Assembly: GCA_028554795.2 (NCBI GenBank)
Contig: JAPYKE020000034.1
Span: 272,040-336,039, forward strand
Direction of reading: 5' to 3'
From: Sinohyriopsis cumingii
Taxonomy: Eukaryota; Mollusca; Bivalvia; Unionida; Unionidae
DNA: 64,000 nucleotides
Below are positions 1 through 64,000 of the stretch, one piece after another. Position 1 is the stretch's first letter, and each line of letters opens with the position of its first letter. The notes below the pieces were generated by a model. That model was not told the origin of the DNA and made no database searches. It saw only the letters and a list, made by a program, of their open reading frames with translations. The position numbers and the translations under genes were made by a program.

Positions 1-346
1 GATGTGAGGAAGTGGGTTTGCAGTACAATATATTTCCATTTATGCAATGCAATTCTTATAGCATAATGCTTGGCCAGAATAATTGACAAGTATATATGCT
101 GCAATAATAAGGATTATAATTGATTTTCAATATCCAATGCCTGTTTAGTTTAAAAAACATTTCCTGTATGACACAGCCAGAATAAAAAAGATCAACCAAA
201 GAATGTATAAATCTTACATGTGCACTTTTTGTAATAATTTATATAAAAAAAAGTCTATTTGCATTATGTTTTGGTAATATATGAATATATTTGGCTGATT
301 TTTCCTTTTTCATGGTGTCTGTTTTTATTTAAGTAAAATGTGGCAC

Positions 347-362
347 CTGCAAAATTGTGCAG
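347..362. other. Imperfect 16-bp palindrome centred on AATT
   Basis: CTGCAAAATTGTGCAG equals its own reverse complement except for one mismatched pair. The C version, CTGCAGAATTGTGCAG, has the same 5-bp arms and AATT centre and also one mismatched pair. It recurs in every A and C part of the array. A protein-binding role is possible but unproven, and a palindrome of this length can also arise by chance. Confidence 0.4.
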
Positions 363-461
363 TTTATTCATGTAATAAGCTTTTAATAACCTCGAATTAG
401 AACATTTAATACAAATGAAATTATAAAATGTTTAATTGGATTTTGATTGAATTTTCGTACG

Positions 462-482
462 TCTCTGAAAAAATCTCAGAGA
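462..482. other. Short stem-loop just before the LINE fragment
   Basis: TCTCTGA and TCAGAGA form 7-bp complementary arms around a 7-nt AAAAATC loop. The C version at 4232-4250 keeps 6-bp arms. In copies 8 and 9 the last A of the stem is changed to C. It follows the palindrome CGTACG and lies about 40 bp before recognisable LINE sequence, so it may lie near an old insertion or rearrangement border. Confidence 0.4.
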
Positions 483-520
483 TGCATGAGCATAATTGTG
501 ATATACTCTTGTATTCTCAT

Positions 521-1506
521 ACTAGCCCTGGACCAGGCACTCCAAGACCTGCCAGATCACGATGCCACAGTCATGTGGAGCGCCATGAAGGGTGTCATCT
601 ACAGCACAGCCATGGCCACGATTGGCACTAGTTCAGCGCACATCTATCAAGGATAGAACCAATAATCGAAGACAAATGAAAAGCCTTCAAAGCTTACAAA
701 AATGCCCTAATGAACGGATGCTTGCTGATCTCAGAAGCGCTCGAAGCAACACCCAACACATCGCTAGACAGTGCGCGAACGAGTACTGGTAACAACTATG
801 TGAAGGACTCCAGCGCAGTACCGAATCCGGAAACATCCAAGGTATGTACTGTGATATCAAGAAGGCTCTAGGCCCTATGGTGAAAGGGATCGTCCGCCAG
901 AAATCTCTGACGGGAGAGGAGATCACTGACTGCGAGCAACAGATGGCCAGATGGGTGGAACACTACTCAGAGCTATGCTCCCAAGAAATGTCAGTCACCG
1001 ATGCAGCCCTAGCAGCAAAAAAACTGCCCACCATAGAGGAGCTCGACAAAGTGCCCACCTTAGAGGAGCTCAAGAAAGCAATCGACTCCGTCCCAAACGA
1101 CAAAGCACAATGTAGTGACAGCATCCCGCCCAAAGCTATCGAACGTGGGAAACCAACATTGCTTCAGCTGCTGCATGAGCTACTTTGTCTCTGCTGGGAG
1201 GAAAGGAGCGGTCCTCCAAGATATGCGCGAGATACCGTTTACAAAAACAATGGCGACCTCAGTAACTGTAATAATTACAGAGGGATCTCGCTTCTGAGCA
1301 TCGTTGGCAAAGTGTATTCCCGCATTATACTCAACAGGCTGCAGTTGCTGGTGGACCATGTGCACCTGGAATCCCAGTGCGGCTTTAAAGCAGGCAGGTC
1401 GACGACAGACATGATCTTTTCCATACGACAACTCCAAGAGAAGAACACAGAGCAAGGTCAACCACTCTACATGATGTTCATTGAACTCACCAAGACCTTT
1501 GACCTG
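521..1506 (+). mobile_element. LINE reverse-transcriptase fragment A, copy 1 (longest open frame)
   Basis: This is an internal piece of a non-LTR retrotransposon ORF2. The 5' section encodes LQDLPDHDATVMW and a later ARQCANEYW, the linker between endonuclease and reverse transcriptase. It is interrupted by stops, by a deletion of about 22 bp relative to C that removes the QDWF segment, and by a TAA at 790-792. From 793 the frame is open for 242 codons including the stop (ATG at 844, stop ending 1518). Within the 224-residue frame are PNDKAQCSD (84-92, a decayed KAPGSD motif), CNNYRGISLLSIVGK (142-156, fingers), SQCGFKAGRSTTD (177-189) and FIELTKTFDL (212-221, motif A with Glu in place of the first Asp). 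Homology ends at about 1506, then HDN and a stop. Palm motifs B and C, the thumb and the endonuclease are missing, so it cannot be active. The motifs resemble animal RTE/CR1/Jockey-type LINEs. The exact clade is not settled by eye. Confidence 0.88.
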
Positions 1507-1576
1507 CATGATAATTAGTTTTTATTATGTAAACTAAAGACTATTAAATGCATCGAAGAGGTCATCTAAGCTGTTA

Positions 1577-1912
1577 TTTATTACATTTTGTTAACAATTG
1601 CTTGGAAGAGCTGAGATATGTAATTGTTTATTAGACTAGTTACAATTACCTTGAAGAGATGAGCTATGTAATCATTTGTTGTATTTTGGTTACAATTACT
1701 TCAGAGAATTGAGATATATACTTATTTATTACTCTTTTTACAGTTATACAGTTACTTCAACGAGTTGAGATATTTACTAGGCTTTAATACTCTGGTTTCA
1801 GTTACATCAAATAGTTGAGATACATACTCGTTTATTACATTGTTTATAATTACTTCAAAGAGGCGAGCTATGTAATCTTTTAGTACACTTTGCTTACAAT
1901 TACTTCGAGATA
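1577..1912 (+). repeat. Degenerate ~50-bp minisatellite, part A
   Basis: The element GAGATATGTAAT or GAGCTATGTAATC, followed by TTTATTACA, GGTTACAATTACTTC and AAGAG, recurs with anchors at 1613, 1661, 1711, 1767, 1817 and 1865. The spacings are 48, 50, 56, 50 and 48 bp. A seventh, decayed unit ends near 1907-1912. The 56-bp unit is longer because of a short internal duplication (CAGTTATACAGTTA). About 70 bp of linker (1507-1576) separates it from the LINE fragment. Single-base phase drift and substitutions show it is old compared with the higher-order array. Confidence 0.85.
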
Positions 1913-2321
1913 ATTTCATCCCATTTCCCTTTTGAAATGTACACCATAAACTGAATCCTGGAGTTATTTACTTGTAGATCGAACCAGTAAAGATTACATA
2001 TATAGTTTCTTTGAAATCTTTTTGTCGCATATGAAGATTTGTTCTAAATTGTCGAGATTACACTGGGCGTTACGTTCCATTTGTTACGCTGCGGAATACC
2101 AACAAATAAAGATTTCTTGAGTTTTATTGTATTTCTCACATTTTTTGTGAATTTAAAAATTGAATTAAACACTTTTAAGTAGTTATTGTTGATTAGCCGG
2201 TGTATATAGTATGACGACGGAAGACATCATGTCTGTATACACTTGTTGCATTCGTGTGTATGCGTGCGATGCTTTATTTGAATTAACGTTTGTCTTTCAC
2301 CATTATTTTGCATTAAGTATG
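1913..2321. other. AT-rich 3' tail of monomer A (truncated, no gene seen)
   Basis: This non-coding stretch is homologous to 3304-3790 (B) and 5706-6194 (C), but lacks the last ~77 bp of the monomer. AATAAA lies at 2105-2110. The second AATAAA of B and C (in TTGAATAAAACAC) is changed here to TTGAATTAAACAC. GACATCATGTC at about 2224 is a short palindrome with a 1-nt centre. A 61-codon frame (2211-2396) crosses the fusion point into LINE sequence out of its native frame. I do not regard it as a gene. Confidence 0.75.
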
Positions 2322-2335
2322 ACAGATGGCCAGAT
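2310..2335 (+). other. A-B fusion junction (deletion breakpoint)
   Basis: In B and C the tail reads GCATTAAGTTTGAAAC and continues for about 77 bp to the next monomer. Here it reads GCATTAAGTATGACAGATGG and enters LINE sequence that in A follows GAGCAACAGATGG (about 940). The break is at about 2320-2322 with at most one or two bases of overlap and possibly a short filler. It removed about 1.0 kb: the end of one monomer plus the first ~940 bp of the next. The identical junction is present in all ten complete units, so it predates the amplification of the 6.2-kb unit. Confidence 0.9.
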
Positions 2336-2899
2336 GGGTGGAACACTACCTAGAGCTATACTCCCAAGAAATGTCAGTCACCGATGCGGCCCCTAGCAGC
2401 ATAAAAACTGCTAACCATGGACGAGCTCAACAAAGTGCCCACCTTAGAGGAGCTCAGCAAAGCAATTGACTCCCTCCCAAACGACAAAGCACCAGGTAGT
2501 GACATCATCCCGCCCGAAGCTATCGAACGTGAGAAACAAACATTGCTTCAGCCACTGCATGAGCTACTTTGTCTCTGCTGGGAGGAAGGAGCGGATCCCC
2601 AAGACATGCGCGAGATACCGTTTACAAAAACAATGGCGACCTCAGTGACTGTAATAATTACAGAGGGATCTCGCTTGATCTCGCTTCTGAGCATCGTTGG
2701 CAACGTGTATGCCCGCATTATATTCAACAGGCTGCAGTTGCTGGCGGACAGTGTGCACCTGGAATCCCAGTGCGGCTTTAATGCAGGCAGGTCGACGACA
2801 GGCAGGATATTTTCCATACGACAACTCCAAGAGAAGAACACAGAGCAAGGTCAACCACTCTACATGATGTTCATCGACCTCACCAAGACCTTTGACCTG
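2322..2899 (+). mobile_element. LINE reverse-transcriptase fragment B, copy 1 (5'-deleted)
   Basis: This is the same LINE piece as A but begins at QMARWVEHY because of the fusion deletion. An extra base near 2391 (GCGGCCCCTAGC, shared with C) breaks the native frame before the ATG at 2417. From there a 164-codon frame runs to 2911. It keeps KAPGSD and CWEEGADPQDMR in the native frame, then runs out of frame (residues translated as EIPFTKTMATSVTVIITEG). It returns to the native frame at ISLLSIVGN through a 10-bp duplication at 2667-2686. SQCGFNAGRSTTG follows, then FIDLTKTFDL with the motif A Asp retained. It is non-functional for the same reasons as A. Confidence 0.87.
2667..2686 (+). repeat. 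10-bp tandem duplication in LINE B
   Basis: GATCTCGCTT occurs twice in a row, where A and C have it once. It is present in every B part of the window. Ten bases shift the frame by one, which restores the LINE frame that is out of register just upstream. Confidence 0.93.
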
Positions 2900-2968
2900 C
2901 ATGATAATTAGATTTAATATGTAAACTGAAGACTATTAAATGCATCGAAGAGGTCATCTAAGCTGTTA

Positions 2969-3303
2969 TTTATTACATTTTGTTTACAATTGCTTGGAAG
3001 AGCTGAGATATGTAATAGTTTATTAGACTAGTTACAATTACCTCTAAGAGATGAGCTATGTAATCATTTATTGTACTTTGGTTACAATTACTTCAGAGAG
3101 TTGAGATATATACTCATTTATTACTCTTGTTACAGTTATACAGTTGCTTCAACGAGTTGAGATATTTACTCGGCTTTAGTACTCTGGTTACAATTACATC
3201 AAATTGTTGAGATACATACTCGTTTATTACATTGTTTATAATTACTTCAAAGAGGCGAGCTATGTAATCTTTTAGTACACTTTGGTTACAATTACTTCGA
3301 GAC
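2969..3303 (+). repeat. Degenerate ~50-bp minisatellite, part B
   Basis: It has the same number and order of units as in A, including the long unit with CAGTTATACAGTTG. Linker sequence 2900-2968 precedes it. Since unit number and spacing are the same in A, B and C, the minisatellite expanded before the monomers diverged and has not changed copy number since. Confidence 0.84.
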
Positions 3304-3790
3304 AATTTCATCCCATTTCCCTTTTGAAATGTACACCATTAGCTGAATCCTACAGCTATTTACTCGTAGATCGAACCAGTAAAGATTACATATATAGTTT
3401 CTTTGAAATCTTTTTGTCGGTTATGAACATTTGTTCTAAATTGTCGAAATTACACTGAGCGTTACGTTCCATTTGTCACGCTGCGGAATACCAACAAATA
3501 AATATTTCTTGAGTTTTATTGTATTTCTCACATTTTTCCGAATTTAAAAATTGAATAAAACACTTTTAAGTAGTTATTGTTGATTTATCGGTGTAAATAG
3601 TATGACAAAGAAAGACATCCTGTCTGTATACACTTGTTGCATTCGTGTGTATGTGTGTGATGCTTTATTTGAATTAACGTTTGTCTTTCACCATTATTTT
3701 GCATTAAGTTTGAAACATTTCAGAGAAAACACATATTCATGCCACTGAGCATACTTGTAGAATACATTCATTGAACAGATAACAGGGTCG
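3304..3790. other. AT-rich 3' tail of monomer B (complete, no gene seen)
   Basis: This is non-coding and homologous to the A and C tails. It retains the last ~77 bp missing from A, ending AACAGGGTCG. AATAAA occurs at 3497-3502 and 3554-3559. The minus-strand frame across the B-C boundary (3694-3879) is not convincing as a gene. I see no RNA gene. Confidence 0.75.
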
Positions 3791-4289
3791 GATGTGAGGA
3801 AGTGGGTTTGCAGTACAATATATTTCCATTTATGCAATGCAATTCTCATAGCATAATGCTTGGTCAGAATAATTAACAAGTATATATGCTGCAGTAATAA
3901 GGATTATAACTGATTTTAAAAATGCAACTGCTGTATGACACAGCCAGAATAAAAAAGATCAATCAAAGAATTTATAAATCTTACACGTGCACTTTTTGTA
4001 ATAATTTATATTTAAAAAAAGTCTATTTGCATTATGTTTTGGTAATATATGAATCTATTTGGCTATTTTTTTCCTTTTCCATGGTACATGTGTTTATATA
4101 AGTAAAATGTGGCACCTGCAGAATTGTGCAGTTCTTTCATGTAATTTGCTTTTGATCACCTCGAACTAGAACATTCAATACCAATCAAATTATAAAATGT
4201 TTAATTGCATTTTGATTGAATGGTCGTACGTCTCTGAAACAATCTCAGAGCTGCACTAGTAGAATTGTGATATACTCTTGTATTATCAT
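3791..4289. other. AT-rich 5' flank of monomer C (no gene seen)
   Basis: It is homologous to 1-520. It differs from A by a deletion of about 20 bp after TGATTTTAAAAATGCAAC (3912-3929) and by a TATA-like stretch TTTATATAAG at 4093-4102, where A has TTTTATTTAAG. Nothing shows that this is a working promoter. The stem-loop homologue is at 4232-4250. Confidence 0.8.
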
Positions 4290-5301
4290 ACTAGCCCTGG
4301 ACCAGACACTCCAGGACCTGCCAGACCACGATGCCACAGCCATGTGGAACGCCATGAAGGGTGCAATCTACAGCACAGCCATGGCCATGTTTGGCAAAAA
4401 TTAACGGCCCAGCCAGGACTGGTTCAACGCACATCTATCAAGGATGGAACCAATAATCGAAGACAAACGAAAAGCCTTCAAACGTTACAAAAAAATGCCT
4501 TAATGGACGGACGCTTGCTGATCTCAGAAGTGCTCGAAGCAACACCCAACACAATCGCTAGACAGTGCGCGAACGAGTACTGGTAACAACTATGTGAAGG
4601 ACTCCAGCACAGTGCCGAGTCCGGAAACATCCAAGGTATGTACTGTGGTATCAAGAAGGCTCTAGGCCCTACGGTGAAAGGGGCCGTTCCCCGGAAATCT
4701 CTGAGGGGAGAGGAGATCACTGACTGTGAGCAACAGATGGCCAGATGGGTGGAACACTACTCAGAGCTATACTCCCAGGATATGCTAGTCACCGATGCGG
4801 CCCCTAGCAGCATAAAAACTGCCCACCATGGATGAGCTCGACAAAGTGCCCACCTTAGAGGAGCTCAGCAAAGCACTCGACTCCCACCCAAACGACAAAG
4901 CACCAGGTAGTGACATCATCCCGCCCAAAGCTATAGAACGTGGGAAACCAACATTGCTTCAGCCGCTGCATGAGCTACTTTGTCTCTGCTGGAAGTAAAG
5001 GAGCGGTCCCCCAAGATATGCGCGAGATACCGTTTACAAAAACAATGGCGACCTCAATGACTGTAATAACTACAGAGGGATCTCGCTTCTGAGCATCGTT
5101 GGCAAAGTGTATGCCCGCATTATACTCAACAGGCTGCAGTTGCTGGCGGACCGTGTGCACCTGGAATCCCAGTGCGGCTTTAAAGCAGGCAGGTCGACGA
5201 CAGACAGGATTTTTTCCATACGACAACTCCAAGAGAAGAACACAGAGCAAGGTCAACCACTCTACATGATGTTCATCGAAATCACCAAGACCTTTGACCT
5301 G
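4290..5301 (+). mobile_element. LINE reverse-transcriptase fragment C, copy 1 (most complete, most broken)
   Basis: This is the fullest version of the fragment and the best guide to the ancestor. In order it shows LQDLPDHDATAMWNAMKG, then QDWFNAHLSRM and EDKRKAFKRYKKM (segment lost or decayed in A), ARQCANEYW, ESGNIQGMYCGIKKALGP, QMARWVEHYSELYSQD, KAPGSDIIPP, CNNYRGISLLSIVGK, SQCGFKAGRSTTD and FIEITKTFDL. The frame is interrupted by a TAA after FGKN (4402-4404), one after KKMP, the TAA at 4584-4586 shared with A, the extra base near 4801 shared with B, and a TAA at 4996-4998 after CWK. Motif A has Glu in place of the first Asp, as in A. Homology stops immediately after motif A, at the same place as in A and B. 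Confidence 0.88.
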
Positions 5302-5371
5302 CATGATAATTAGTTTTTATTATGTAAATTGAAGACTATTAAATGCATCGTAGAAGTGATCTAAGCTGTTA

Positions 5372-5705
5372 TTTATTACATTTTGTTTACAATTGCTTGG
5401 AAGAGCTGAGATATGTAATAGTTTATTAGACTAGTTACCATTACCTTGAAGAGATGAGCTATGTAATCATTTATTGTACTTTGGTTACAATTACTTCAGA
5501 GAGTTGAGATATATACTCATTTATTACTCTTGTTACAGTTATACAGTTACTTCACCGAGTTGAGATATTTACTCGGCTTTAGTACTCTGGTTTCAATGAC
5601 ATCAAATAGTTGAGATACGTACTTGTTTATTACATTGTTTATAATTACTTCAAAGAGTCGAGCTATGTGATCTTTTAGTACACTTTGGTTACAATTACTT
5701 CGAGA
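5372..5705 (+). repeat. Degenerate ~50-bp minisatellite, part C
   Basis: It has the same six to seven units and spacing as in A and B, with its own fixed substitutions (for example CACCGAGTTGAG, CAATGACATC, GAGTCGAGCTATGTGATC). Linker 5302-5371 precedes it and holds the class marker GTAGAAGTG (I) or GTAGAGGTG (II). Confidence 0.84.
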
Positions 5706-6194
5706 CATTTTCATCCCATTTCCCTTTTGAAATGTACACCATTAACTGAATCCTGCAGCTATTTACTTGTAGATCGAACCAGTAAAGATTACATATATAG
5801 TTTCTTTGAAATCTTTTTGTTGGTTATGAAGATTTGTTCTAAATTGTCGAAATTACACTGGGAATTACGTTCCATTTGTCACGCTGTGGAATACCAACAA
5901 ATACAAATTTCTTGGGTTTTATTGTATTTCTCAAATGTTTTACAAATTTAACAATTGAATAAAACACTTTTAAGTAGTTATTGTTGATCAGCCGGTGTAT
6001 ATAGTATGACGAAGGAAGACATCATGTCTGTATACACTTGTTGCATTCGTGTGTATGTGTGTGATGCTTTATTTGAATTAACGTTTGTCTTTCACCATTA
6101 TTTTGCATTAAGTTTGAAACATTTCAAAGAAAACCGATATTCATGCCATTGAGGATACTTGTAGAATACATTCATTGAACAGATAACAGGGTCG
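5706..6194. other. AT-rich 3' tail of monomer C (complete, no gene seen)
   Basis: AATAAA is at 5958-5963. The upstream one of A and B is changed to AATACA here. An 88-codon frame at 5685-5951 is open in all ten C parts but begins only with TTG, is not open in A or B and matches nothing I know, so it is not called as a gene. The stretch ends AACAGGGTCG and leads into the next unit. Confidence 0.75.
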
Positions 6195-6714
6195 GATGTG
6201 AGGAAGTGGGTTTGCAGTACAATATATTTCCATTTATGCAATGCAATTCTTATAGCATAATGCTTGGCCAGAATAATTGACAAGTATATATGCTGCAATA
6301 ATAAGGATTATAATTGATTTTCAATATCCAATGCCTGTTTAGTTTAAAAAACATTTCCTGTATGACACAGCCAGAATAAAAAAGATCAACCAAAGAATGT
6401 ATAAATCTTACATGTGCACTTTTTGTAATAATTTATATAAAAAAAAGTCTATTTGCATTATGTTTTGGTAATATATGAATATATTTGGCTGATTTTTCCT
6501 TTTTCATGGTGTCTGTTTTTATTTAAGTAAAATGTGGCACCTGCAAAATTGTGCAGTTTATTCATGTAATAAGCTTTTAATAACCTCGAATTAGAACATT
6601 TAATACAAATGAAATTATAAAATGTTTAATTGGATTTTGATTGAATTTTCGTACGTCTCTGAAAAAATCTCAGAGATGCATGAGCATAATTGTGATATAC
6701 TCTTGTATTCTCAT

Positions 6715-7700
6715 ACTAGCCCTGGACCAGGCACTCCAAGACCTGCCAGATCACGATGCCACAGTCATGTGGAGCGCCATGAAGGGTGTCATCTACAGCA
6801 CAGCCATGGCCACGATTGGCACTAGTTCAGCGCACATCTATCAAGGATAGAACCAATAATCGAAGACAAATGAAAAGCCTTCAAAGCTTACAAAAATGCC
6901 CTAATGAACGGATGCTTGCTGATCTCAGAAGCGCTCGAAGCAACACCCAACACATCGCTAGACAGTGCGCGAACGAGTACTGGTAACAACTATGTGAAGG
7001 ACTCCAGCGCAGTGCCGAATCCGGAAACATCCAAGGTATGTACTGTGATATCAAGAAGGCTCTAGGCCCTATGGTGAAAGGGATCGTCCGCCAGAAATCT
7101 CTGACGGGAGAGGAGATCACTGACTGCGAGCAACAGATGGCCAGATGGGTGGAACACTACTCAGAGCTATGCTCCCAAGAAATGTCAGTCACCGATGCAG
7201 CCCTAGCAGCAAAAAAACTGCCCACCATAGAGGAGCTCGACAAAGTGCCCACCTTAGAGGAGCTCAAGAAAGCAATCGACTCCGTCCCAAACGACAAAGC
7301 ACAATGTAGTGACAGCATCCCGCCCAAAGCTATCGAACGTGGGAAACCAACATTGCTTCAGCTGCTGCATGAGCTACTTTGTCTCTGCTGGGAGGAAAGG
7401 AGCGGTCCTCCAAGATATGCGCGAGATACCGTTTACAAAAACAATGGCGACCTCAGTAACTGTAATAATTACAGAGGGATCTCGCTTCTGAGCATCGTTG
7501 GCAAAGTGTATTCCCGCATTATACTCAACAGGCTGCAGTTGCTGGTGGACCATGTGCACCTGGAATCCCAGTGCGGCTTTAAAGCAGGCAGGTCGACGAC
7601 AGACATGATCTTTTCCATACGACAACTCCAAGAGAAGAACACAGAGCAAGGTCAACCACTCTACATGATGTTCATTGAACTCACCAAGACCTTTGACCTG
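6715..7700 (+). mobile_element. LINE fragment A, copy 2
   Basis: The frame 7038-7712 is open for 224 codons and has the same protein sequence as copy 1. Just upstream it has G in place of the private A of copy 1 (GCGCAGTGCCG). Confidence 0.88.
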
Positions 7701-8515
7701 CATGATAATTAGTTTTTATTATGTAAACTAAAGACTATTAAATGCATCGAAGAGGTCATCTAAGCTGTTATTTATTACATTTTGTTAACAATTGCTTGGA
7801 AGAGCTGAGATATGTAATTGTTTATTAGACTAGTTACAATTACCTTGAAGAGATGAGCTATGTAATCATTTGTTGTATTTTGGTTACAATTACTTCAGAG
7901 AATTGAGATATATACTTATTTATTACTCTTTTTACAGTTATACAGTTACTTCAACGAGTTGAGATATTTACTAGGCTTTAATACTCTGGTTTCAGTTACA
8001 TCAAATAGTTGAGATACATACTCGTTTATTACATTGTTTATAATTACTTCAAAGAGGCGAGCTATGTAATCTTTTAGTACACTTTGCTTACAATTACTTC
8101 GAGATAATTTCATCCCATTTCCCTTTTGAAATGTACACCATAAACTGAATCCTGGAGTTATTTACTTGTAGATCGAACCAGTAAAGATTACATATATAGT
8201 TTCTTTGAAATCTTTTTGTCGCATATGAAGATTTGTTCTAAATTGTCGAGATTACACTGGGCGTTACGTTCCATTTGTTACGCTGCGGAATACCAACAAA
8301 TAAAGATTTCTTGAGTTTTATTGTATTTCTCACATTTTTTGTGAATTTAAAAATTGAATTAAACACTTTTAAGTAGTTATTGTTGATTAGCCGGTGTATA
8401 TAGTATGACGACGGAAGACATCATGTCTGTATACACTTGTTGCATTCGTGTGTATGCGTGCGATGCTTTATTTGAATTAACGTTTGTCTTTCACCATTAT
8501 TTTGCATTAAGTATG

Positions 8516-9093
8516 ACAGATGGCCAGATGGGTGGAACACTACCTAGAGCTATACTCCCAAGAAATGTCAGTCACCGATGCGGCCCCTAGCAGCATAAAA
8601 ACTGCTAACCATGGACGAGCTCAACAAAGTGCCCACCTTAGAGGAGCTCAGCAAAGCAATTGACTCCCTCCCAAACGACAAAGCACCAGGTAGTGACATC
8701 ATCCCGCCCGAAGCTATCGAACGTGAGAAACAAACATTGCTTCAGCCACTGCATGAGCTACTTTGTCTCTGCTGGGAGGAAGGAGCGGATCCCCAAGACA
8801 TGCGCGAGATACCGTTTACAAAAACAATGGCGACCTCAGTGACTGTAATAATTACAGAGGGATCTCGCTTGATCTCGCTTCTGAGCATCGTTGGCAACGT
8901 GTATGCCCGCATTATATTCAACAGGCTGCAGTTGCTGGCGGACAGTGTGCACCTGGAATCCCAGTGCGGCTTTAATGCAGGCAGGTCGACGACAGGCAGG
9001 ATATTTTCCATACGACAACTCCAAGAGAAGAACACAGAGCAAGGTCAACCACTCTACATGATGTTCATCGACCTCACCAAGACCTTTGACCTG
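8516..9093 (+). mobile_element. LINE fragment B, copy 2
   Basis: The 164-codon frame is at 8611-9105, unchanged from copy 1, with TLEELSK and the 10-bp duplication. Confidence 0.87.
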
Positions 9094-10483
9094 CATGATA
9101 ATTAGATTTAATATGTAAACTGAAGACTATTAAATGCATCGAAGAGGTCATCTAAGCTGTTATTTATTACATTTTGTTTACAATTGCTTGGAAGAGCTGA
9201 GATATGTAATAGTTTATTAGACTAGTTACAATTACCTCTAAGAGATGAGCTATGTAATCATTTATTGTACTTTGGTTACAATTACTTCAGAGAGTTGAGA
9301 TATATACTCATTTATTACTCTTGTTACAGTTATACAGTTGCTTCAACGAGTTGAGATATTTACTCGGCTTTAGTACTCTGGTTACAATTACATCAAATTG
9401 TTGAGATACATACTCGTTTATTACATTGTTTATAATTACTTCAAAGAGGCGAGCTATGTAATCTTTTAGTACACTTTGGTTACAATTACTTCGAGACAAT
9501 TTCATCCCATTTCCCTTTTGAAATGTACACCATTAGCTGAATCCTACAGCTATTTACTCGTAGATCGAACCAGTAAAGATTACATATATAGTTTCTTTGA
9601 AATCTTTTTGTCGGTTATGAACATTTGTTCTAAATTGTCGAAATTACACTGAGCGTTACGTTCCATTTGTCACGCTGCGGAATACCAACAAATAAATATT
9701 TCTTGAGTTTTATTGTATTTCTCACATTTTTCCGAATTTAAAAATTGAATAAAACACTTTTAAGTAGTTATTGTTGATTTATCGGTGTAAATAGTATGAC
9801 AAAGAAAGACATCCTGTCTGTATACACTTGTTGCATTCGTGTGTATGTGTGTGATGCTTTATTTGAATTAACGTTTGTCTTTCACCATTATTTTGCATTA
9901 AGTTTGAAACATTTCAGAGAAAACACATATTCATGCCACTGAGCATACTTGTAGAATACATTCATTGAACAGATAACAGGGTCGGATGTGAGGAAGTGGG
10001 TTTGCAGTACAATATATTTCCATTTATGCAATGCAATTCTCATAGCATAATGCTTGGTCAGAATAATTAACAAGTATATATGCTGCAGTAATAAGGATTA
10101 TAACTGATTTTAAAAATGCAACTGCTGTATGACACAGCCAGAATAAAAAAGATCAATCAAAGAATTTATAAATCTTACACGTGCACTTTTTGTAATAATT
10201 TATATTTAAAAAAAGTCTATTTGCATTATGTTTTGGTAATATATGAATCTATTTGGCTATTTTTTTCCTTTTCCATGGTACATGTGTTTATATAAGTAAA
10301 ATGTGGCACCTGCAGAATTGTGCAGTTCTTTCATGTAATTTGCTTTTGATCACCTCGAACTAGAACATTCAATACCAATCAAATTATAAAATGTTTAATT
10401 GCATTTTGATTGAATGGTCGTACGTCTCTGAAACAATCTCAGAGCTGCACTAGTAGAATTGTGATATACTCTTGTATTATCAT

Positions 10484-11495
10484 ACTAGCCCTGGACCAGA
10501 CACTCCAGGACCTGCCAGACCACGATGCCACAGCCATGTGGAACGCCATGAAGGGTGCAATCTACAGCACAGCCATGGCCATGTTTGGCAAAAATTAACG
10601 GCCCAGCCAGGACTGGTTCAACGCACATCTATCAAGGATGGAACCAATAATCGAAGACAAACGAAAAGCCTTCAAACGTTACAAAAAAATGCCTTAATGG
10701 ACGGACGCTTGCTGATCTCAGAAGTGCTCGAAGCAACACCCAACACAATCGCTAGACAGTGCGCGAACGAGTACTGGTAACAACTATGTGAAGGACTCCA
10801 GCACAGTGCCGAGTCCGGAAACATCCAAGGTATGTACTGTGGTATCAAGAAGGCTCTAGGCCCTACGGTGAAAGGGGCCGTTCCCCGGAAATCTCTGAGG
10901 GGAGAGGAGATCACTGACTGTGAGCAACAGATGGCCAGATGGGTGGAACACTACTCAGAGCTATACTCCCAGGATATGCTAGTCACCGATGCGGCCCCTA
11001 GCAGCATAAAAACTGCCCACCATGGATGAGCTCGACAAAGTGCCCACCTTAGAGGAGCTCAGCAAAGCACTCGACTCCCACCCAAACGACAAAGCACCAG
11101 GTAGTGTCATCATCCCGCCCAAAGCTATAGAACGTGGGAAACCAACATTGCTTCAGCCGCTGCATGAGCTACTTTGTCTCTGCTGGAAGTAAAGGAGCGG
11201 TCCCCCAAGATATGCGCGAGATACCGTTTACAAAAACAATGGCGACCTCAATGACTGTAATAACTACAGAGGGATCTCGCTTCTGAGCATCGTTGGCAAA
11301 GTGTATGCCCGCATTATACTCAACAGGCTGCAGTTGCTGGCGGACCGTGTGCACCTGGAATCCCAGTGCGGCTTTAAAGCAGGCAGGTCGACGACAGACA
11401 GGATTTTTTCCATACGACAACTCCAAGAGAAGAACACAGAGCAAGGTCAACCACTCTACATGATGTTCATCGAAATCACCAAGACCTTTGACCTG
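10484..11495 (+). mobile_element. LINE fragment C, copy 2
   Basis: It has the same stops as C of copy 1. A private T at 11107 changes the LINE-frame Asp of KAPGSD to Val. Confidence 0.87.
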
Positions 11496-12908
11496 CATGA
11501 TAATTAGTTTTTATTATGTAAATTGAAGACTATTAAATGCATCGTAGAAGTGATCTAAGCTGTTATTTATTACATTTTGTTTACAATTGCTTGGAAGAGC
11601 TGAGATATGTAATAGTTTATTAGACTAGTTACCATTACCTTGAAGAGATGAGCTATGTAATCATTTATTGTACTTTGGTTACAATTACTTCAGAGAGTTG
11701 AGATATATACTCATTTATTACTCTTGTTACAGTTATACAGTTACTTCACCGAGTTGAGATATTTACTCGGCTTTAGTACTCTGGTTTCAATGACATCAAA
11801 TAGTTGAGATACGTACTTGTTTATTACATTGTTTATAATTACTTCAAAGAGTCGAGCTATGTGATCTTTTAGTACACTTTGGTTACAATTACTTCGAGAC
11901 ATTTTCATCCCATTTCCCTTTTGAAATGTACACCATTAACTGAATCCTGCAGCTATTTACTTGTAGATCGAACCAGTAAAGATTACATATATAGTTTCTT
12001 TGAAATCTTTTTGTTGGTTATGAAGATTTGTTCTAAATTGTCGAAATTACACTGGGAATTACGTTCCATTTGTCACGCTGTGGAATACCAACAAATACAA
12101 ATTTCTTGGGTTTTATTGTATTTCTCAAATGTTTTACAAATTTAACAATTGAATAAAACACTTTTAAGTAGTTATTGTTGATCAGCCGGTGTATATAGTA
12201 TGACGAAGGAAGACATCATGTCTGTATACACTTGTTGCATTCGTGTGTATGTGTGTGATGCTTTATTTGAATTAACGTTTGTCTTTCACCGTTATTTTGC
12301 ATTAAGTTTGAAACATTTCAAAGAAAACCGATATTCATGCCATTGAGGATACTTGTAGAATACATTCATTGAACAGATAACAGGGTCGGATGTGAGGAAG
12401 TGGGTTTGCAGTACAATATATTTCCATTTATGCAATGCAATTCTTATAGCATAATGCTTGGCCAGAATAATTGACAAGTATATATGCTGCAATAATAAGG
12501 ATTATAATTGATTTTCAATATCCAATGCCTGTTTAGTTTAAAAAACATTTCCTGTATGACACAGCCAGAATAAAAAAGATCAACCAAAGAATGTATAAAT
12601 CTTACATGTGCACTTTTTGTAATAATTTATATAAAAAAAAGTCTATTTGCATTATGTTTTGGTAATATATGAATATATTTGGCTGATTTTTCCTTTTTCA
12701 TGGTGTCTGTTTTTATTTAAGTAAAATGTGGCACCTGCAAAATTGTGCAGTTTATTCATGTAATAAGCTTTTAATAACCTCGAATTAGAACATTTAATAC
12801 AAATGAAATTATAAAATGTTTAATTGGATTTTGATTGAATTTTCGTACGTCTCTGAAAAAATCTCAGAGATGCATGAGCATAATTGTGATATACTCTTGT
12901 ATTCTCAT

Positions 12909-51058: not shown

Positions 51059-51873
51059 CATGATAATTAGTTTTTATTATGTAAACTAAAGACTATTAAA
51101 TGCATCGAAGAGGTCATCTAAGCTGTTATTTATTACATTTTGTTAACAATTGCTTGGAAGAGCTGAGATATGTAATTGTTTATTAGACTAGTTACAATTA
51201 CCTTGAAGAGATGAGCTATGTAATCATTTGTTGTATTTTGGTTACAATTACTTCAGAGAATTGAGATATATACTTATTTATTACTCTTTTTACAGTTATA
51301 CAGTTACTTCAACGAGTTGAGATATTTACCAGGCTTTAATACTCTGGTTTCAGTTACATCAAATAGTTGAGATACATACTCGTTTATTACATTGTTTATA
51401 ATTACTTCAAAGAGGCGAGCTATGTAATCTTTTAGTACACTTTGCTTACAATTACTTCGAGATAATTTCATCCCATTTCCCTTTTGAAATGTACACCATA
51501 AACTTAATCCTGGAGTTATTTACTTGTAGATCGAACCAGTAAAGATTACATATATAGTTTCTTTGAAATCTTTTTGTCGCATATGAAGATTTGTTCTAAA
51601 TTGTCGAGATTACACTGGGCGTTACGTTCCATTTGTTACGCTGCGGAATACCAACAAATAAAGATTTCTTGAGTTTTATTGTATTTCTCACATTTTTTGT
51701 GAATTTAAAAATTGAATTAAACACTTTTAAGTAGTTATTGTTGATTAGCCGGTGTATATAGTATGACGACGGAAGACATCATGTCTGTATACACTTGTTG
51801 CATTCGTGTGTATGCGTGCGATGCTTTATTTGAATTAACGTTTGTCTTTCACCATTATTTTGCATTAAGTATG

Positions 51874-52451
51874 ACAGATGGCCAGATGGGTGGAACACTA
51901 CCTAGAGCTATACTCCCAAGAAATGTCAGTCACCGATGCGGCCCCTAGCAGCATAAAAACTGCTAACCATGGACGAGCTCAACAAAGTGCCCACCTTAGA
52001 GGAGCTCAGCAAAGCAATTGACTCCCTCCCAAACGACAAAGCACCAGGTAGTGACATCATCCCGCCCGAAGCTATCGAACGTGAGAAACAAACATTGCTT
52101 CAGCCACTGCATGAGCTACTTTGTCTCTGCTGGGAGGAAGGAGCGGATCCCCAAGACATGCGCGAGATACCGTTTACAAAAACAATGGCGACCTCAGTGA
52201 CTGTAATAATTACAGAGGGATCTCGCTTGATCTCGCTTCTGAGCATCGTTGGCAACGTGTATGCCCGCATTATATTCAACAGGCTGCAGTTGCTGGCGGA
52301 CAGTGTGCACCTGGAATCCCAGTGCGGCTTTAATGCAGGCAGGTCGACGACAGGCAGGATATTTTCCATACGACAACTCCAAGAGAAGAACACAGAGCAA
52401 GGTCAACCACTCTACATGATGTTCATCGACCTCACCAAGACCTTTGACCTG
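51874..52451 (+). mobile_element. LINE fragment B, copy 9
   Basis: The 164-codon frame is at 51969-52463. It reverts to class I (TLEELSK) between two class II units. Confidence 0.87.
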
Positions 52452-53841
52452 CATGATAATTAGATTTAATATGTAAACTGAAGACTATTAAATGCATCGA
52501 AGAGGTCATCTAAGCTGTTATTTATTACATTTTGTTTACAATTGCTTGGAAGAGCTGAGATATGTAATAGTTTATTAGACTAGTTACAATTACCTCTAAG
52601 AGATGAGCTATGTAATCATTTATTGTACTTTGGTTACAATTACTTCAGAGAGTTGAGATATATACTCATTTATTACTCTTGTTACAGTTATACAGTTGCT
52701 TCAACGAGTTGAGATATTTACTCGGCTTTAGTACTCTGGTTACAATTACATCAAATTGTTGAGATACATACTCGTTTATTACATTGTTTATAATTACTTC
52801 AAAGAGGCGAGCTATGTAATCTTTTAGTACACTTTGGTTACAATTACTTCGAGACAATTTCATCCCATTTCCCTTTTGAAATGTACACCATTAGCTGAAT
52901 CCTACAGCTATTTACTCGTAGATCGAACCAGTAAAGATTACATATATAGTTTCTTTGAAATCTTTTTGTCGGTTATGAACATTTGTTCTAAATTGTCGAA
53001 ATTACACTGAGCGTTACGTTCCATTTGTCACGCTGCGGAATACCAACAAATAAATATTTCTTGAGTTTTATTGTATTTCTCACATTTTTCCGAATTTAAA
53101 AATTGAATAAAACACTTTTAAGTAGTTATTGTTGATTTATCGGTGTAAATAGTATGACAAAGAAAGACATCCTGTCTGTATACACTTGTTGCATTCGTGT
53201 GTATGTGTGTGATGCTTTATTTGAATTAACGTTTGTCTTTCACCATTATTTTGCATTAAGTTTGAAACATTTCAGAGAAAACACATATTCATGCCACTGA
53301 GCATACTTGTAGAATACATTCATTGAACAGATAACAGGGTCGGATGTGAGGAAGTGGGTTTGCAGTACAATATATTTCCATTTATGCAATGCAATTCTCA
53401 TAGCATAATGCTTGGTCAGAATAATTAACAAGTATATATGCTGCAGTAATAAGGATTATAACTGATTTTAAAAATGCAACTGCTGTATGACACAGCCAGA
53501 ATAAAAAAGATCAATCAAAGAATTTATAAATCTTACACGTGCACTTTTTGTAATAATTTATATTTTAAAAAAGTCTATTTGCATTATGTTTTGGTAATAT
53601 ATGAATCTATTTGGCTATTTTTTTCCTTTTCCATGGTACATGTGTTTATATAAGTAAAATGTGGCACCTGCAGAATTGTGCAGTTCTTTCATGTAATTTG
53701 CTTTTGATCACCTCGAACTAGAACATTCAATACCAATCAAATTATAAAATGTTTAATTGCATTTTGATTGAATGGTCGTACGTCTCTGAAACAATCTCAG
53801 AGCTGCACTAGTAGAATTGTGATATACTCTTGTATTATCAT

Positions 53842-54853
53842 ACTAGCCCTGGACCAGACACTCCAGGACCTGCCAGACCACGATGCCACAGCCATGTGGA
53901 ACGCCATGAAGGGTGCAATCTACAGCACAGCCATGGCCATGTTTTGCAAAAATTAACGGCCCAGCCAGGACTGGTTCAACGCACATCTATCAAGGATGGA
54001 ACCAATAATCGAAGACAAACGAAAAGCCTTCAAACGTTACAAAAAAATGCCTTAATGGACGGACGCTTGCTGATCTCAGAAGTGCTCGAAGCAACACCCA
54101 ACACAATCGCTAGACAGTGCGCGAACGAGTACTGGTAACAACTATGTGAAGGACTCCAGCACAGTGCCGAGTCCGGAAACATCCAAGGTATGTACTGTGG
54201 TATCAAGAAGGCTCTAGGCCCTACGGTGAAAGGGGCCGTTCCCCGGAAATCTCTGAGGGGAGAGGAGATCACTGACTGTGAGCAACAGATGGCCAGATGG
54301 GTGGAACACTACTCAGAGCTATACTCCCAGGATATGCTAGTCACCGATGCGGCCCCTAGCAGCATAAAAACTGCCCACCATGGATGAGCTCGACAAAGTG
54401 CCCACCTTAGAGGAGCTCAGCAAAGCACTCGACTCCCACCCAAACGACAAAGCACCAGGTAGTGACATCATCCCGCCCAAAGCTATAGAACGTGGGAAAC
54501 CAACATTGCTTCAGCCGCTGCATGAGCTACTTTGTCTCTGCTGGAAGTAAAGGAGCGGTCCCCCAAGATATGCGCGAGATACCGTTTACAAAAACAATGG
54601 CGACCTCAATGACTGTAATAACTACAGAGGGATCTCGCTTCTGAGCATCGTTGGCAAAGTGTATGCCCGCATTATACTCAACAGGCTGCAGTTGCTGGCG
54701 GACCGTGTGCACCTGGAATCCCAGTGCGGCTTTAAAGCAGGCAGGTCGACGACAGACAGGATTTTTTCCATACGACAACTCCAAGAGAAGAACACAGAGC
54801 AAGGTCAGCCACTCTACATGATGTTCATCGAAATCACCAAGACCTTTGACCTG
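53842..54853 (+). mobile_element. LINE fragment C, copy 9
   Basis: It is class I. The private T at 53945 changes MFGKN to MFCKN. The G at 54808 is silent. Confidence 0.87.
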
Positions 54854-56266
54854 CATGATAATTAGTTTTTATTATGTAAATTGAAGACTATTAAATGCAT
54901 CGTAGAAGTGATCTAAGCTGTTATTTATTACATTTTGTTTACAATTGCTTGGAAGAGCTGAGATATGTAATAGTTTATTAGACTAGTTACCATTACCTTG
55001 AAGAGATGAGCTATGTAATCATTTATTGTACTTTGGTTACAATTACTTCAGAGAGTTGAGATATATACTCATTTATTACTCTTGTTACAGTTATACAGTT
55101 ACTTCACCGAGTTGAGATATTTACTCGGCTTTAGTACTCTGGTTTCAATGACATCAAATAGTTGAGATACGTACTTGTTTATTACATTGTTTATAATTAC
55201 TTCAAAGAGTCGAGCTATGTGATCTTTTAGTACACTTTGGTTACAATTACTTCGAGACATTTTCATCCCATTTCCCTTTTGAAATGTACACCATTAACTG
55301 AATCCTGCAGCTATTTACTTGTAGATCGAACCAGTAAAGATTACATATATAGTTTCTTTGAAATCGTTTTGTTGGTTATGAAGATTTGTTCTAAATTGTC
55401 GAAATTACACTGGGAATTACGTTCCATTTGTCACGCTGTGGAATACCAACAAATACAAATTTCTTGGGTTTTATTGTATTTCTCAAATGTTTTACAAATT
55501 TAACAATTGAATAAAACACTTTTAAGTAGTTATTGTTGATCAGCCGGTGTATATAGTATGACGAAGGAAGACATCATGTCTGTATACACTTGTTGCATTC
55601 GTGTGTATGTGTGTGATGCTTTATTTGAATTAACGTTTGTCTTTCACCGTTATTTTGCATTAAGTTTGAAACATTTCAAAGAAAACCGATATTCATGCCA
55701 TTGAGGATACTTGTAGAATACATTCATTGAACAGATAACAGGGTCGGATGTGAGGAAGTGGGTTTGCAGTACAATATATTTCCATTTATGCAATGCAATT
55801 CTTATAGCATAATGCTTGGCCAGAATAATTGACAAGTATATATGCTGCAATAATAAGGATTATAATTGATTTTCAATATCCAATGCCTGTTTAGTTTAAA
55901 AAACATTTCCTGTATGACACAGCCAGAATAAAAAAGATCAACCAAAGAATTTATAAATCTTACATGTGCACTTTTTGTAATAATTTATATAAAAAAAAGT
56001 CTATTTGCATTATGTTTTGGTAATATATGAATATATTTGGCTGATTTTTCCTTTTTCATGGTGTCTGTTTTTATTTAAGTAAAATGTGGCACCTGCAAAA
56101 TTGTGCAGTTTATTCATGTAATAAGCTTTTAATAACCTCGAATTAGAACATTTAATACAAATGAAATTATAAAATGTTTAATTGGATTTTGATTGAATTT
56201 TCGTACGTCTCTGAAAAAATCTCAGAGATGCATGAGCATAATTGTGATATACTCTTGTATTCTCAT

Positions 56267-58645: not shown

Positions 58646-60035
58646 CATGATAATTAGATTTAATATGTAAACTGAAGACTATTAAATGCATCGAAGAGGT
58701 CATCTAAGCTGTTATTTATTACATTTTGTTTACAATTGCTTGGAAGAGCTGAGATATGTAATAGTTTATTAGACTAGTTACAATTACCTCTAAGAGATGA
58801 GCTATGTAATCATTTATTGTACTTTGGTTACAATTACTTCAGAGAGTTGAGATATATACTCATTTATTACTCTTGTTACAGTTATACAGTTGCTTCAACG
58901 AGTTGAGATATTTACTCGGCTTTAGTACTCTGGTTACAATTACATCAAATTGTTGAGATACATACTCGTTTATTACATTGTTTATAATTACTTCAAAGAG
59001 GCGAGCTATGTAATCTTTTAGTACACTTTGGTTACAATTACTTCGAGACAATTTCATCCCATTTCCCTTTTGAAATGTACACCATTAGCTGAATCCTACA
59101 GCTATTTACTTGTAGATCGAACCAGTAAAGATTACATATATAGTTTCTTTGAAATCTTTTTGTCGGTTATGAACATTTGTTCTAAATTGTCGAAATTACA
59201 CTGAGCGTTACGTTCCATTTGTCACGCTGCGGAATACCAACAAATAAATATTTCTTGAGTTTTATTGTATTTCTCACATTTTTCCGAATTTAAAAATTGA
59301 ATAAAACACTTTTAAGTAGTTATTGTTGATTTATCGGTGTAAATAGTATGACAAAGAAAGACATCCTGTCTGTATACACTTGTTGCATTCGTGTGTATGT
59401 GTGTGATGCTTTATTTGAATTAACGTTTGTCTTTCACCATTATTTTGCATTAAGTTTGAAACATTTCAGAGAAAACACATATTCATGCCACTGAGCATAC
59501 TTGTAGAATACATTCATTGAACAGATAACAGGGTCCGATGTGAGGAAGTGGGTTTGCAGTACAATATATTTCCATTTATGCAATGCAATTCTCATAGCAT
59601 AATGCTTGGTCAGAATAATTAACAAGTATATATGCTGCAGTAATAAGGATTATAACTGATTTTAAATATCCAACTGCTGTATGACACAGCCAGAATAAAA
59701 AAGATCAATCAAAGAATTTATAAATCTTACACGTGCACTTTTTGTAATAATTTATATTTAAAAAAAGTCTATTTGCATTATGTTTTGGTAATATATGAAT
59801 CTATTTGGCTATTTTTTTCCTTTTCCATGGTACATGTGTTTATATAAGTAAAATGTGGCACCTGCAGAATTGTGCAGTTCTTTCATGTAATTTGCTTTTG
59901 ATCACCTCGAACTAGAACATTCAATACCAATCAAATTATAAAATGTTTAATTGCATTTTGATTGAATGGTCGTACGTCTCTGAAACAATCTCAGAGCTGC
60001 ACTAGTAGAATTGTGATATACTCTTGTATTGTCAT

Positions 60036-61047
60036 ACTAGCCCTGGACCAGACACTCCAGGACCTGCCAGACCACGATGCCACAGCCATGTGGAACGCCA
60101 TGAAGGGTGCAATCTACAGCACAGCCATGGCCATGTTTGGCAAAAATTAACGGCCCAGCCAGGACTGGTTCAACGCACATCTATCAAGGATGGAACCAAT
60201 AATCGAAGACAAACGAAAAGCCTTCAAACGTTACAAAAAAATGCCTTAATGGACGGACGCTTGCTGATCTCAGAAGTGCTCGAAGCAACACCCAACACAA
60301 TCGCTAGACAGTGCGCGAACGAGTACTGGTAACAACTATGTGAAGGACTCCAGCACAGTGCCGAGTCCGGAAACATCCAAGGTATGTACTGTGGTATCAA
60401 GAAGGCTCTAGGCCCTACGGTGAAAGGGGCCGTTCCCCGGAAATCTCTGAGGGGAGAGGAGATCACTGACTGTGAGCAACAGATGGCCAGATGGGTGGAA
60501 CACTACTCAGAGCTATACTCCCAGGATATGCTAGTCACCGATGCGGCCCCTAGCAGCATAAAAACTGCCCACCATGGATGAGCTCGACAAAGTGCCCACC
60601 TTAGAGGAGCTCAGCAAAGCACTCGACTCCCACCCAAACGACAAAGCACCAGGTAGTGACATCATCCCGCCCAAAGCTATAGAACGTGGGAAACCAACAT
60701 TGCTTCAGCCGCTGCATGAGCTACTTTGTCTCTGCTGGAAGTAAAGGAGCGGTCCCCCAAGATATGCGCGAGATACCGTTTACAAAAACAATGGCGACCT
60801 CAATGACTGTAATAACTACAGAGGGATCTCGCTTCTGAGCATCGTTGGCAAAGTGTATGCCCGCATTATACTCAACAGGCTGCAGTTGCTGGCGGACCGT
60901 GTGCACCTGGAATCCCAGTGCGGCTTTAAAGCAGGCAGGTCGACGACAGACAGGATTTTTTCCATACGACAACTCCAAGAGAAGAACACAGAGCAAGGTC
61001 AACCACTCTACATGATGTTCATCGAAATCACCAAGACCTTTGACCTG
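60036..61047 (+). mobile_element. LINE fragment C, copy 10 (spans the class II/I switch)
   Basis: The sequence is class II immediately upstream (GTATTGTCAT) and class I just downstream (GTAGAAGTG at about 61086). There is no class marker inside, so the exchange point is bounded by these two sites. Confidence 0.87.
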
Positions 61048-61940
61048 CATGATAATTAGTTTTTATTATGTAAATTGAAGACTATTAAATGCATCGTAGA
61101 AGTGATCTAAGCTGTTATTTATTACATTTTGTTTACAATTGCTTGGAAGAGCTGAGATATGTAATAGTTTATTAGACTAGTTACCATTACCTTGAAGAGA
61201 TGAGCTATGTAATCATTTATTGTACTTTGGTTACAATTACTTCAGAGAGTTGAGATATATACTCATTTATTACTCTTGTTACAGTTATACAGTTACTTCA
61301 CCGAGTTGAGATATTTACTCGGCTTTAGTACTCTGGTTTCAATGACATCAAATAGTTGAGATACGTACTTGTTTATTACATTGTTTATAATTACTTCAAA
61401 GAGTCGAGCTATGTGATCTTTTAGTACACTTTGGTTACAATTACTTCGAGACATTTTCATCCCATTTCCCTTTTGAAATGTACACCATTAACTGAATCCT
61501 GCAGCTATTTACTTGTAGATCGAACCAGTAAAGATTACATATATAGTTTCTTTGAAATCTTTTTGTTGGTTATGAAGATTTGTTCTAAATTGTCGAAATT
61601 ACACTGGGAATTACGTTCCATTTGTCACGCTGTGGAATACCAACAAATACAAATTTCTTGGGTTTTATTGTATTTCTCAAATGTTTTACAAATTTAACAA
61701 TTGAATAAAACACTTTTAAGTAGTTATTGTTGATCAGCCGGTGTATATAGTATGACGAAGGAAGACATCATGTCTGTATACACTTGTTGCATTCGTGTGT
61801 ATGTGTGTGATGCTTTATTTGAATTAACGTTTGTCTTTCACCGTTATTTTGCATTAAGTTTGAAACATTTCAAAGAAAACCGATATTCATGCCATTGAGG
61901 ATACTTGTAGAATACATTCATTGAACAGATAACAGGGTCG

Positions 61941-64000
61941 GATGTGAGGAAGTGGGTTTGCAGTACAATATATTTCCATTTATGCAATGCAATTCTTATA
62001 GCATAATGCTTGGCCAGAATAATTGACAAGTATATATGCTGCAATAATAAGGATTATAATTGATTTTCAATATCCAATGCCTGTTTAGTTTAAAAAACAT
62101 TTCCTGTATGACACAGCCAGAATAAAAAAGATCAACCAAAGAATTTATAAATCTTACATGTGCACTTTTTGTAATAATTTATATAAAAAAAAGTCTATTT
62201 GCATTATGTTTTGGTAATATATGAATATATTTGGCTGATTTTTCCTTTTTCATGGTGTCTGTTTTTATTTAAGTAAAATGTGGCACCTGCAAAATTGTGC
62301 AGTTTATTCATGTAATAAGCTTTTAATAACCTCGAATTAGAACATTTAATACAAATGAAATTATAAAATGTTTAATTGGATTTTGATTGAATTTTCGTAC
62401 GTCTCTGAAAAAATCTCAGAGATGCATGAGCATAATTGTGATATACTCTTGTATTCTCATACTAGCCCTGGACCAGGCACTCCAAGACCTGCCAGATCAC
62501 GATGCCACAGTCATGTGGAGCGCCATGAAGGGTGTCATCTACAGCACAGCCATGGCCACGATTGGCACTAGTTCAGCGCACATCTATCAAGGATAGAACC
62601 AATAATCGAAGACAAATGAAAAGCCTTCAAAGCTTACAAAAATGCCCTAATGAACGGATGCTTGCTGATCTCAGAAGCGCTCGAAGCAACACCCAACACA
62701 TCGCTAGACAGTGCGCGAACGAGTACTGGTAACAACTATGTGAAGGACTCCAGCGCAGTGCCGAATCCGGAAACATCCAAGGTATGTACTGTGATATCAA
62801 GAAGGCTCTAGGCCCTATGTTGAAAGGGATCGTCCGCCAGAAATCTCTGACGGGAGAGGAGATCACTGACTGCGAGCAACAGATGGCCAGATGGGTGGAA
62901 CACTACTCAGAGCTATGCTCCCAAGAAATGTCAGTCACCGATGCAGCCCTAGCAGCAAAAAAACTGCCCACCATAGAGGAGCTCGACAAAGTGCCCACCT
63001 TAGAGGAGCTCAAGAAAGCAATCGACTCCGTCCCAAACGACAAAGCACAATGTAGTGACAGCATCCCGCCCAAAGCTATCGAACGTGGGAAACCAACATT
63101 GCTTCAGCTGCTGCATGAGCTACTTTGTCTCTGCTGGGAGGAAAGGAGCGGTCCTCCAAGATATGCGCGAGATACCGTTTACAAAAACAATGGCGACCTC
63201 AGTAACTGTAATAATTACAGAGGGATCTCGCTTCTGAGCATCGTTGGCAAAGTGTATTCCCGCATTATACTCAACAGGCTGCAGTTGCTGGTGGACCATG
63301 TGCACCTGGAATCCCAGTGCGGCTTTAAAGCAGGCAGGTCGACGACAGACATGATCTTTTCCATACGACAACTCCAAGAGAAGAACACAGAGCAAGGTCA
63401 ACCACTCTACATGATGTTCATTGAACTCACCAAGACCTTTGACCTGCATGATAATTAGTTTTTATTATGTAAACTGAAGACTATTAAATGCATCGAAGAG
63501 GTCATCTAAGCTGTTATTTATTACATTTTGTTAACAATTGCTTGGAAGAGCTGAGATATGTAATTGTTTATTAGACTAGTTACAATTACCTTGAAGAGAT
63601 GAGCTATGTAATCATTTGTTGTATTTTGGTTACAATTACTTCAGAGAATTGAGATATATACTTATTTATTACTCTTTTTAAAGTTATACAGTTACTTCAA
63701 CGAGTTGAGATATTTACTAGGCTTTAATACTCTGGTTTCAGTTACATCAAATAGTTGAGATACATACTCGTTTATTACATTGTTTATAATTACTTCAAAG
63801 AGGCGAGCTATGTAATCTTTTAGTACACTTTGCTTACAATTACTTCGAGATAATTTCATCCCATTTCCCTTTTGAAATGTACACCATAAACTGAATCCTG
63901 GAGTTATTTACTTGTAGATCGAACCAGTAAAGATTACATATATAGTTTCTTTGAAATCTTTTTGTCGCATATGAAGATTTGTTCTAAATTGTCGAAATTA
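61941..64000 (+). repeat. Higher-order repeat copy 11, partial (first 2060 bp, class II)
   Basis: Only part A is present, cut by the window end within its AT-rich tail. Parts lie at copy-1 positions plus 61940. It has GTAAACTGAAG, TTTTTAAAG and GTCGAAATT (class II) and shares the T at 62820 in LINE A with copy 10. Confidence 0.95.
62461..63446 (+). mobile_element. LINE fragment A, copy 11
   Basis: The 224-codon frame is at 62784-63458, with GPMLKG as in copy 10. Confidence 0.88.

Follow-up and report, generated by a model that had tools for sequence, protein, structure and literature searches.

The 64,000-nucleotide stretch of contig JAPYKE020000034.1 analysed here (the window) is a tandem macrosatellite array of 6.2-kb units, each a higher-order repeat of three monomers that carry a piece of a long interspersed nuclear element (LINE). 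With a probability of roughly 0.87, we regard it as a non-coding satellite of a eukaryotic nuclear genome, in which LINE-derived monomers underwent a fusion deletion and the three-monomer unit was amplified and kept near-identical. Between successive occurrences of identical 20-mers the commonest spacing is 6194 (27,869 pairs), followed by 6193 (3,914 pairs), 2399 (3,786 pairs) and 6195 (3,785 pairs); 2403 and 1392 stand beside 2399 among the further spacings. None of the 20-mers in the window recurs in inverted orientation, which rules out an inverted array. Alignment of copy 1 to the window returned nine more complete head-to-tail copies with 99.73-99.95 % identity to copy 1, and pairwise the ten complete copies differ at 3-24 of 6195 aligned columns (0.05-0.39 %). 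No interruption occurs over the 64 kb, which are laid out as follows:

1-61940, + strand: ten complete copies of the 6194-bp higher-order repeat (alignment of copy 1, pairwise differences)
1, 6195, 12389, 18582, 24776, 30971, 37165, 43359, 49553, 55747, + strand: starts of the complete copies
61941-64000, + strand: incomplete eleventh copy, truncated where the window ends (alignment)

The original prediction had read the whole window as an uninterrupted head-to-tail array of near-identical copies with a 6.2-kb period, and this is borne out, including by a tandem-repeat check of the period, in which 20-mer spacing and self-alignment give 6194 and, in addition, an inner 2.4-kb period. Tandem Repeats Finder (TRF), whose longest period is 500, is blind to both and reports only inner repeats of 27-56 bp. 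The kilobase-scale unit, its uninterrupted head-to-tail repetition and the high identity within the array with local homogenisation are those of a satellite. The 6.2-kb macrosatellite unit that had been proposed is real as a period but is not the primary unit: self-alignment and the 20-mer spacings resolve it into three copies of one 2.4-kb monomer, about 91-94 % alike, a nested structure that had been missed. Self- and three-way alignment of copy 1 place the monomers and the boundary between the first two at:

1-2321, + strand: monomer A, short of the full monomer by approximately 77 bp at its end
2322-3790, + strand: monomer B, 5'-truncated, without approximately the first 940 bp of the full monomer
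3791-6194, + strand: monomer C, full length (2404 bp)
2310-2329, + strand: A|B deletion junction, 20 bases identical in all ten units that reach it

Monomers A and B look like the remains of two adjoining monomers fused by a deletion of about 1 kb and, since the junction string is present in 10 of 10 units, the deletion is most simply older than the amplification of the 6.2-kb unit. With gap columns left out of the count, the three-way alignment gives identities of 93-94 %, with 1293/1380 (A-B), 2140/2298 (A-C) and 1377/1459 (B-C), corresponding to Kimura two-parameter (K2P) distances of 0.066, 0.072 and 0.059, respectively. Units that differ by 0.05-0.39 % are thus far more alike than the monomers within a unit (K2P 0.059-0.072), and this two-level divergence is the signature of a higher-order repeat. 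Shared-site patterns (44 for BC|A, 40 for AC|B and 34 for AB|C) yield no clear tree of the monomers. Monomer B also contains a 10-bp tandem duplication (window 2667-2686) that is absent from A and C and present in all ten units, and that could be used as a monomer-specific marker.

The LINE content of the monomers is visible both in composition and in protein homology. In A and C, a central piece of about 1 kb has a GC content of 0.50-0.51, versus 0.28-0.31 in its flanks, and matches of RVT_1 (PF00078) lie in the same region at profile positions 5-80 of 205 (E 4.9e-9 in A and 8.2e-10 in C). Both scores exceed the curated cut-off and establish homology to retrotransposon reverse transcriptase, while the match in B, at profile positions 8-80, reaches 29.4 bits against a cut-off of 29.6 and thus falls 0.2 below it. 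The relevant features of copy 1 are:

518-1518, + strand: LINE-derived piece of monomer A, GC 0.50 versus 0.28-0.30 in the flanks, RVT_1 match at about 1249-1503
2322-2911, + strand: LINE-derived piece of monomer B, with stops, frame changes and the 10-bp duplication
4291-5313, + strand: LINE-derived piece of monomer C, with stops and frame changes, upstream limit putative, RVT_1 in frame 4999-5310
793-1518, + strand: stop-to-stop frame of 241 amino acids in monomer A, without detectable selection

A PDB search to E 1 returned eight sequences, the best being R2 and LINE-1 proteins with weak matches (E 0.055-0.22), and frame 4587-4832 had no Pfam match. Residues 53-237 of the 241-amino-acid frame align with an unannotated reverse-transcriptase-like sequence, probably itself of LINE nature, in a plasmid record taken up at the end (29 % identity, E 2.4e-20 against this 8-kb target). 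The LINE part of A therefore covers at least about 949-1503, where homology was tested, and probably reaches upstream to about 518, as suggested by composition and by sequence resembling a LINE linker. Within these partly tentative limits, LINE-derived DNA would account for about 2.6 of the 6.2 kb (approximately 42 %) of the unit. The original prediction of a LINE coding fragment joined to non-LINE DNA accordingly agrees with the RVT_1 matches and the AT-rich remainder.

An active element would hold a complete reverse transcriptase with catalytic motifs, whereas the RVT_1 matches are limited to profile positions 5-80 or 8-80. The piece presumably ends just after reverse transcriptase motif A, with the catalytic part, the later domains and the 3' end absent. 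Endonuclease families gave no match in the 12 frames of at least 80 amino acids of copy 1 (E up to 0.1; shorter frames lay outside the scan). In all three monomers, the reverse transcriptase breaks off at the same point and gives way to the same AT-rich sequence, so that the truncation is older than the divergence of the monomers. An ordinary 5'-truncated LINE insertion keeps its 3' end, and the piece would thus have been trimmed at the DNA level or captured in some other way. The non-LINE remainder of the unit is AT-rich DNA that contains, downstream of the LINE piece, a degenerate minisatellite of about 50 bp, for which TRF reports 66-69 % matches in each monomer:

1574-1908, + strand: degenerate ~50-bp minisatellite of monomer A, 6.7 copies (TRF)
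2968-3298, + strand: degenerate ~50-bp minisatellite of monomer B, 6.6 copies (TRF)
5371-5700, + strand: degenerate ~50-bp minisatellite of monomer C, 6.6 copies (TRF)

As all three monomers hold 6.6-6.7 copies, the minisatellite appears to be older than the monomers and may be a remnant of an earlier satellite or of an element tail.

The differences among the copies are few and patterned. After removal of 38 columns gapped solely in the cut eleventh copy, the copy alignment contains 36 variable columns (34 substitutions and two gap columns); in the ten complete copies, 33 variable sites are biallelic and gap-free, namely 18 singletons and 15 shared sites. One set of variants predominates in copies 6-8 and 10 and a second in copies 1-5 and 9, and some patches cross from one group to the other. 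Of the 105 pairs that the shared sites form, 54 fail the four-gamete test, a result incompatible with a single tree unless exchange or repeated mutation is admitted. On average, adjacent copies show 8.1 differences, a figure that climbs to 12.5-13.3 for copies 6-9 units apart, and neighbouring copies are more alike than in shuffled order (p = 0.026). Unequal crossing-over and conversion are the standard mechanism for satellites, and the variant patterns fit unequal crossing-over, gene conversion between units, or both. For conversion between different monomers the evidence is weak and at most suggestive: the allele absent from copy 1 equals the sister-monomer base at 11 of the 33 biallelic sites, most of which are accounted for if the allele of copy 1 is the derived one, and the rare allele equals the sister-monomer base in two of the 18 singletons (unit positions 1169 and 2085, read from the rows). 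Copy 9 (window 49553-55746) has seven of the 18 singleton variants. It shows 12-14 differences from copies 1-5, as against 20-24 from copies 6-8 and 10, among which it lies; this pattern suggests exchange or the insertion of a block.

A plausible history would begin with an inactive internal LINE piece, about 1 kb long and surrounded by AT-rich DNA in which a 50-bp minisatellite also occurred; together these would have come to be repeated in tandem as the 2.4-kb monomer. After the monomers had diverged by approximately 6-7 %, a deletion would have fused two of them to give the three-monomer, 6.2-kb unit, and this unit would have been amplified, its near-identity presumably being maintained by unequal crossing-over and/or gene conversion between units. 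If this order is right, the one stretch displays successive stages in the birth of a satellite, i. e., capture of a LINE piece with a minisatellite, the monomer array, the fusion deletion and the amplification, and the array is an example of transposon debris becoming satellite DNA as well as a possible probe sequence. Apart from the function of heterochromatic satellite DNA in general, it most likely lacks any that depends on its sequence. Several observations weigh against this account: the test of neighbour similarity is modestly significant at best, no end of the array lies within the window, which leaves room for an assembly error in copy number, and the frame in monomer A is unusually long and open throughout, as set out below. 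In addition, the upstream LINE part (about 518-948) has no Pfam family in the frames scanned, its assignment resting on composition and on its likeness to a LINE linker.

An alternative that is compatible with this history, and would add a role to the array, is a centromeric satellite or one of a sex- or germline-restricted chromosome with a structural role, whose higher-order structure stems from selection or drive; we consider it unlikely, though not negligible. A scan with what we take to be the CENP-B-box motif found no exact core on either strand of the window. With one mismatch there are ten matches versus 3.4 expected, a number reached in none of 100 shuffles, but all ten go back to a single site within the LINE-derived part of monomer B, which recurs with the unit, and they therefore count as one chance event; a CENP-B-box satellite is accordingly rejected, with no exact core and one single-mismatch site per unit in monomer B only. 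In favour of such a role, PMC2588610 relates higher-order structure in human alpha satellite to centromere function, and retrotransposon-derived arrays of Lathyrus are described in PMC7004042 as expanded mainly at primary constrictions. The bolder proposal that the array is an undescribed LINE-derived higher-order-repeat family and makes up either a functional centromere or a block of heterochromatin that is sex- or germline-restricted appears slightly less probable still; if true, kilobase monomers would evolve higher-order structure as alpha satellite does.

Improbable, to our mind, is an assembly artefact, in which a genuine but short array, or one segmental duplication, would have been over-expanded to 64 kb. 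Copies 1-5 differ mutually by just 3-7 columns, and the longest identical run between consecutive copies extends over 912-4093 columns, which makes an exact copy number hard to assemble. However, re-use of one sequence would hardly leave 36 variable columns, with 15 of the 33 biallelic sites shared in patchy patterns.

The 241-amino-acid frame, finally, could be taken to make a protein, the array then being a functional coding macrosatellite as D4Z4, which carries DUX4. It is the longest frame of the unit, all 11 A monomers have it open, and none of 200 dinucleotide shuffles of the unit yields a frame as long (longest frames: mean 111, maximum 237). Yet such length can be expected in DNA that once was coding, and in near-identical copies the frame would be open throughout in any case. 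Judged from the raw counts rather than by a formal test, substitutions are spread evenly over the codon positions, with no excess at the third, both between A and C (12/18/14 over 241 codons) and between A and B (12/14/11, of 171, 171 and 169). Six sites of the frame vary among the copies, and five of them change the amino acid. Stops and frame changes interrupt the frame of A in B and C, one stop a little upstream of the frame is common to A and C, and in all three monomers the residues that we take to characterise LINE reverse transcriptases pass into another frame near QDMR/DTVYKNN. We infer that selection does not maintain the frame: the retained open frame of the original prediction is indeed open in every A monomer, but its retention by selection is unsupported. 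With even codon positions, broken frames in B and C, a reverse transcriptase cut off early and variants that change amino acids, a coding function is rejected as highly improbable.

The non-coding, LINE-derived satellite that we favour has several counterparts. Satellites derived from transposable elements (TEs) are documented, some with higher-order structure (PMC2588610, PMC6947457). In human, the MaLR 'LTR arrays', a megasatellite of long terminal repeats (LTRs), likewise consist of retrotransposon-derived monomers in higher-order repeats, theirs of about 3.5 kb, some of which carry deletions, and have putatively undergone unequal crossing-over; they differ in being built from LTR elements instead of a LINE and in their six-monomer units (PMC2588610). 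Tandem arrays attributed to LINEs are given in Table 1 of PMC6947457, namely the LINE-1 satellites common cetacean satDNA (satellite DNA) and PROsat of Phodopus, and the CR1 satellites HinfI and Cen2/3/4/7/11 of chicken; a higher-order unit of kilobase monomers is not mentioned for them in the part of that source consulted, and the likeness is one of description, not of sequence. A pericentromeric chicken repeat of 770 bp is mentioned in PMC8392823. The Ogre-derived satellites of Lathyrus sativus were likewise born from retrotransposon DNA, but, according to PMC7004042, from short tandem repeats in the 3' untranslated region of LTR elements and not from an internal coding piece. Closest in unit size are the human megasatellites at 4p11 (about 6 kb) and 19q13 (5.4 kb), which also contain LINE/TE pieces and are described without genes; they differ as composites of several TE classes, for which the part of PMC2588610 consulted describes no nested monomers. 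The array is thus probably an unnamed eukaryotic satellite family of a well-known general kind and not a new kind of system; among the literature matches listed, no title or abstract start describes it, the text not being matchable by sequence.

Known RNA genes are equally absent from the unit: ARAGORN (bacterial code) finds no tRNA gene on 1-12400, and the sole Rfam match to E 1 on 1-6600 scores 15.7 versus a gathering threshold of 113, so that both candidates are rejected. The searched collections comprise prokaryotes, phages, plasmids and viral contigs, and absence there says little on novelty. No phage or plasmid matched monomer C in blastn, DNA patterns matched neither the (prokaryotic) genome contigs nor the viral contigs, and protein patterns from one 86-amino-acid query hit 18 stretches in viral contigs and 331 in genome contigs, none of which was confirmed by tblastn. 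Together with the LINE content and the satellite structure, this lack of matches, with one exception among the plasmids, points to a eukaryotic origin. The exception is the record mentioned above (NZ_CP104070.1, 16595-24846), in which tblastn found a match at 4001-4252 of that segment, with 37 % identity over 86 amino acids. Recorded as a 'plasmid' of Alicyclobacillus fastidiosus, it combines the unannotated reverse-transcriptase-like sequence with IncFIA typing and catA1, and looks like a bacterial artificial chromosome (BAC) cloning vector with a eukaryotic insert, i. e., a contaminating or mis-filed record.

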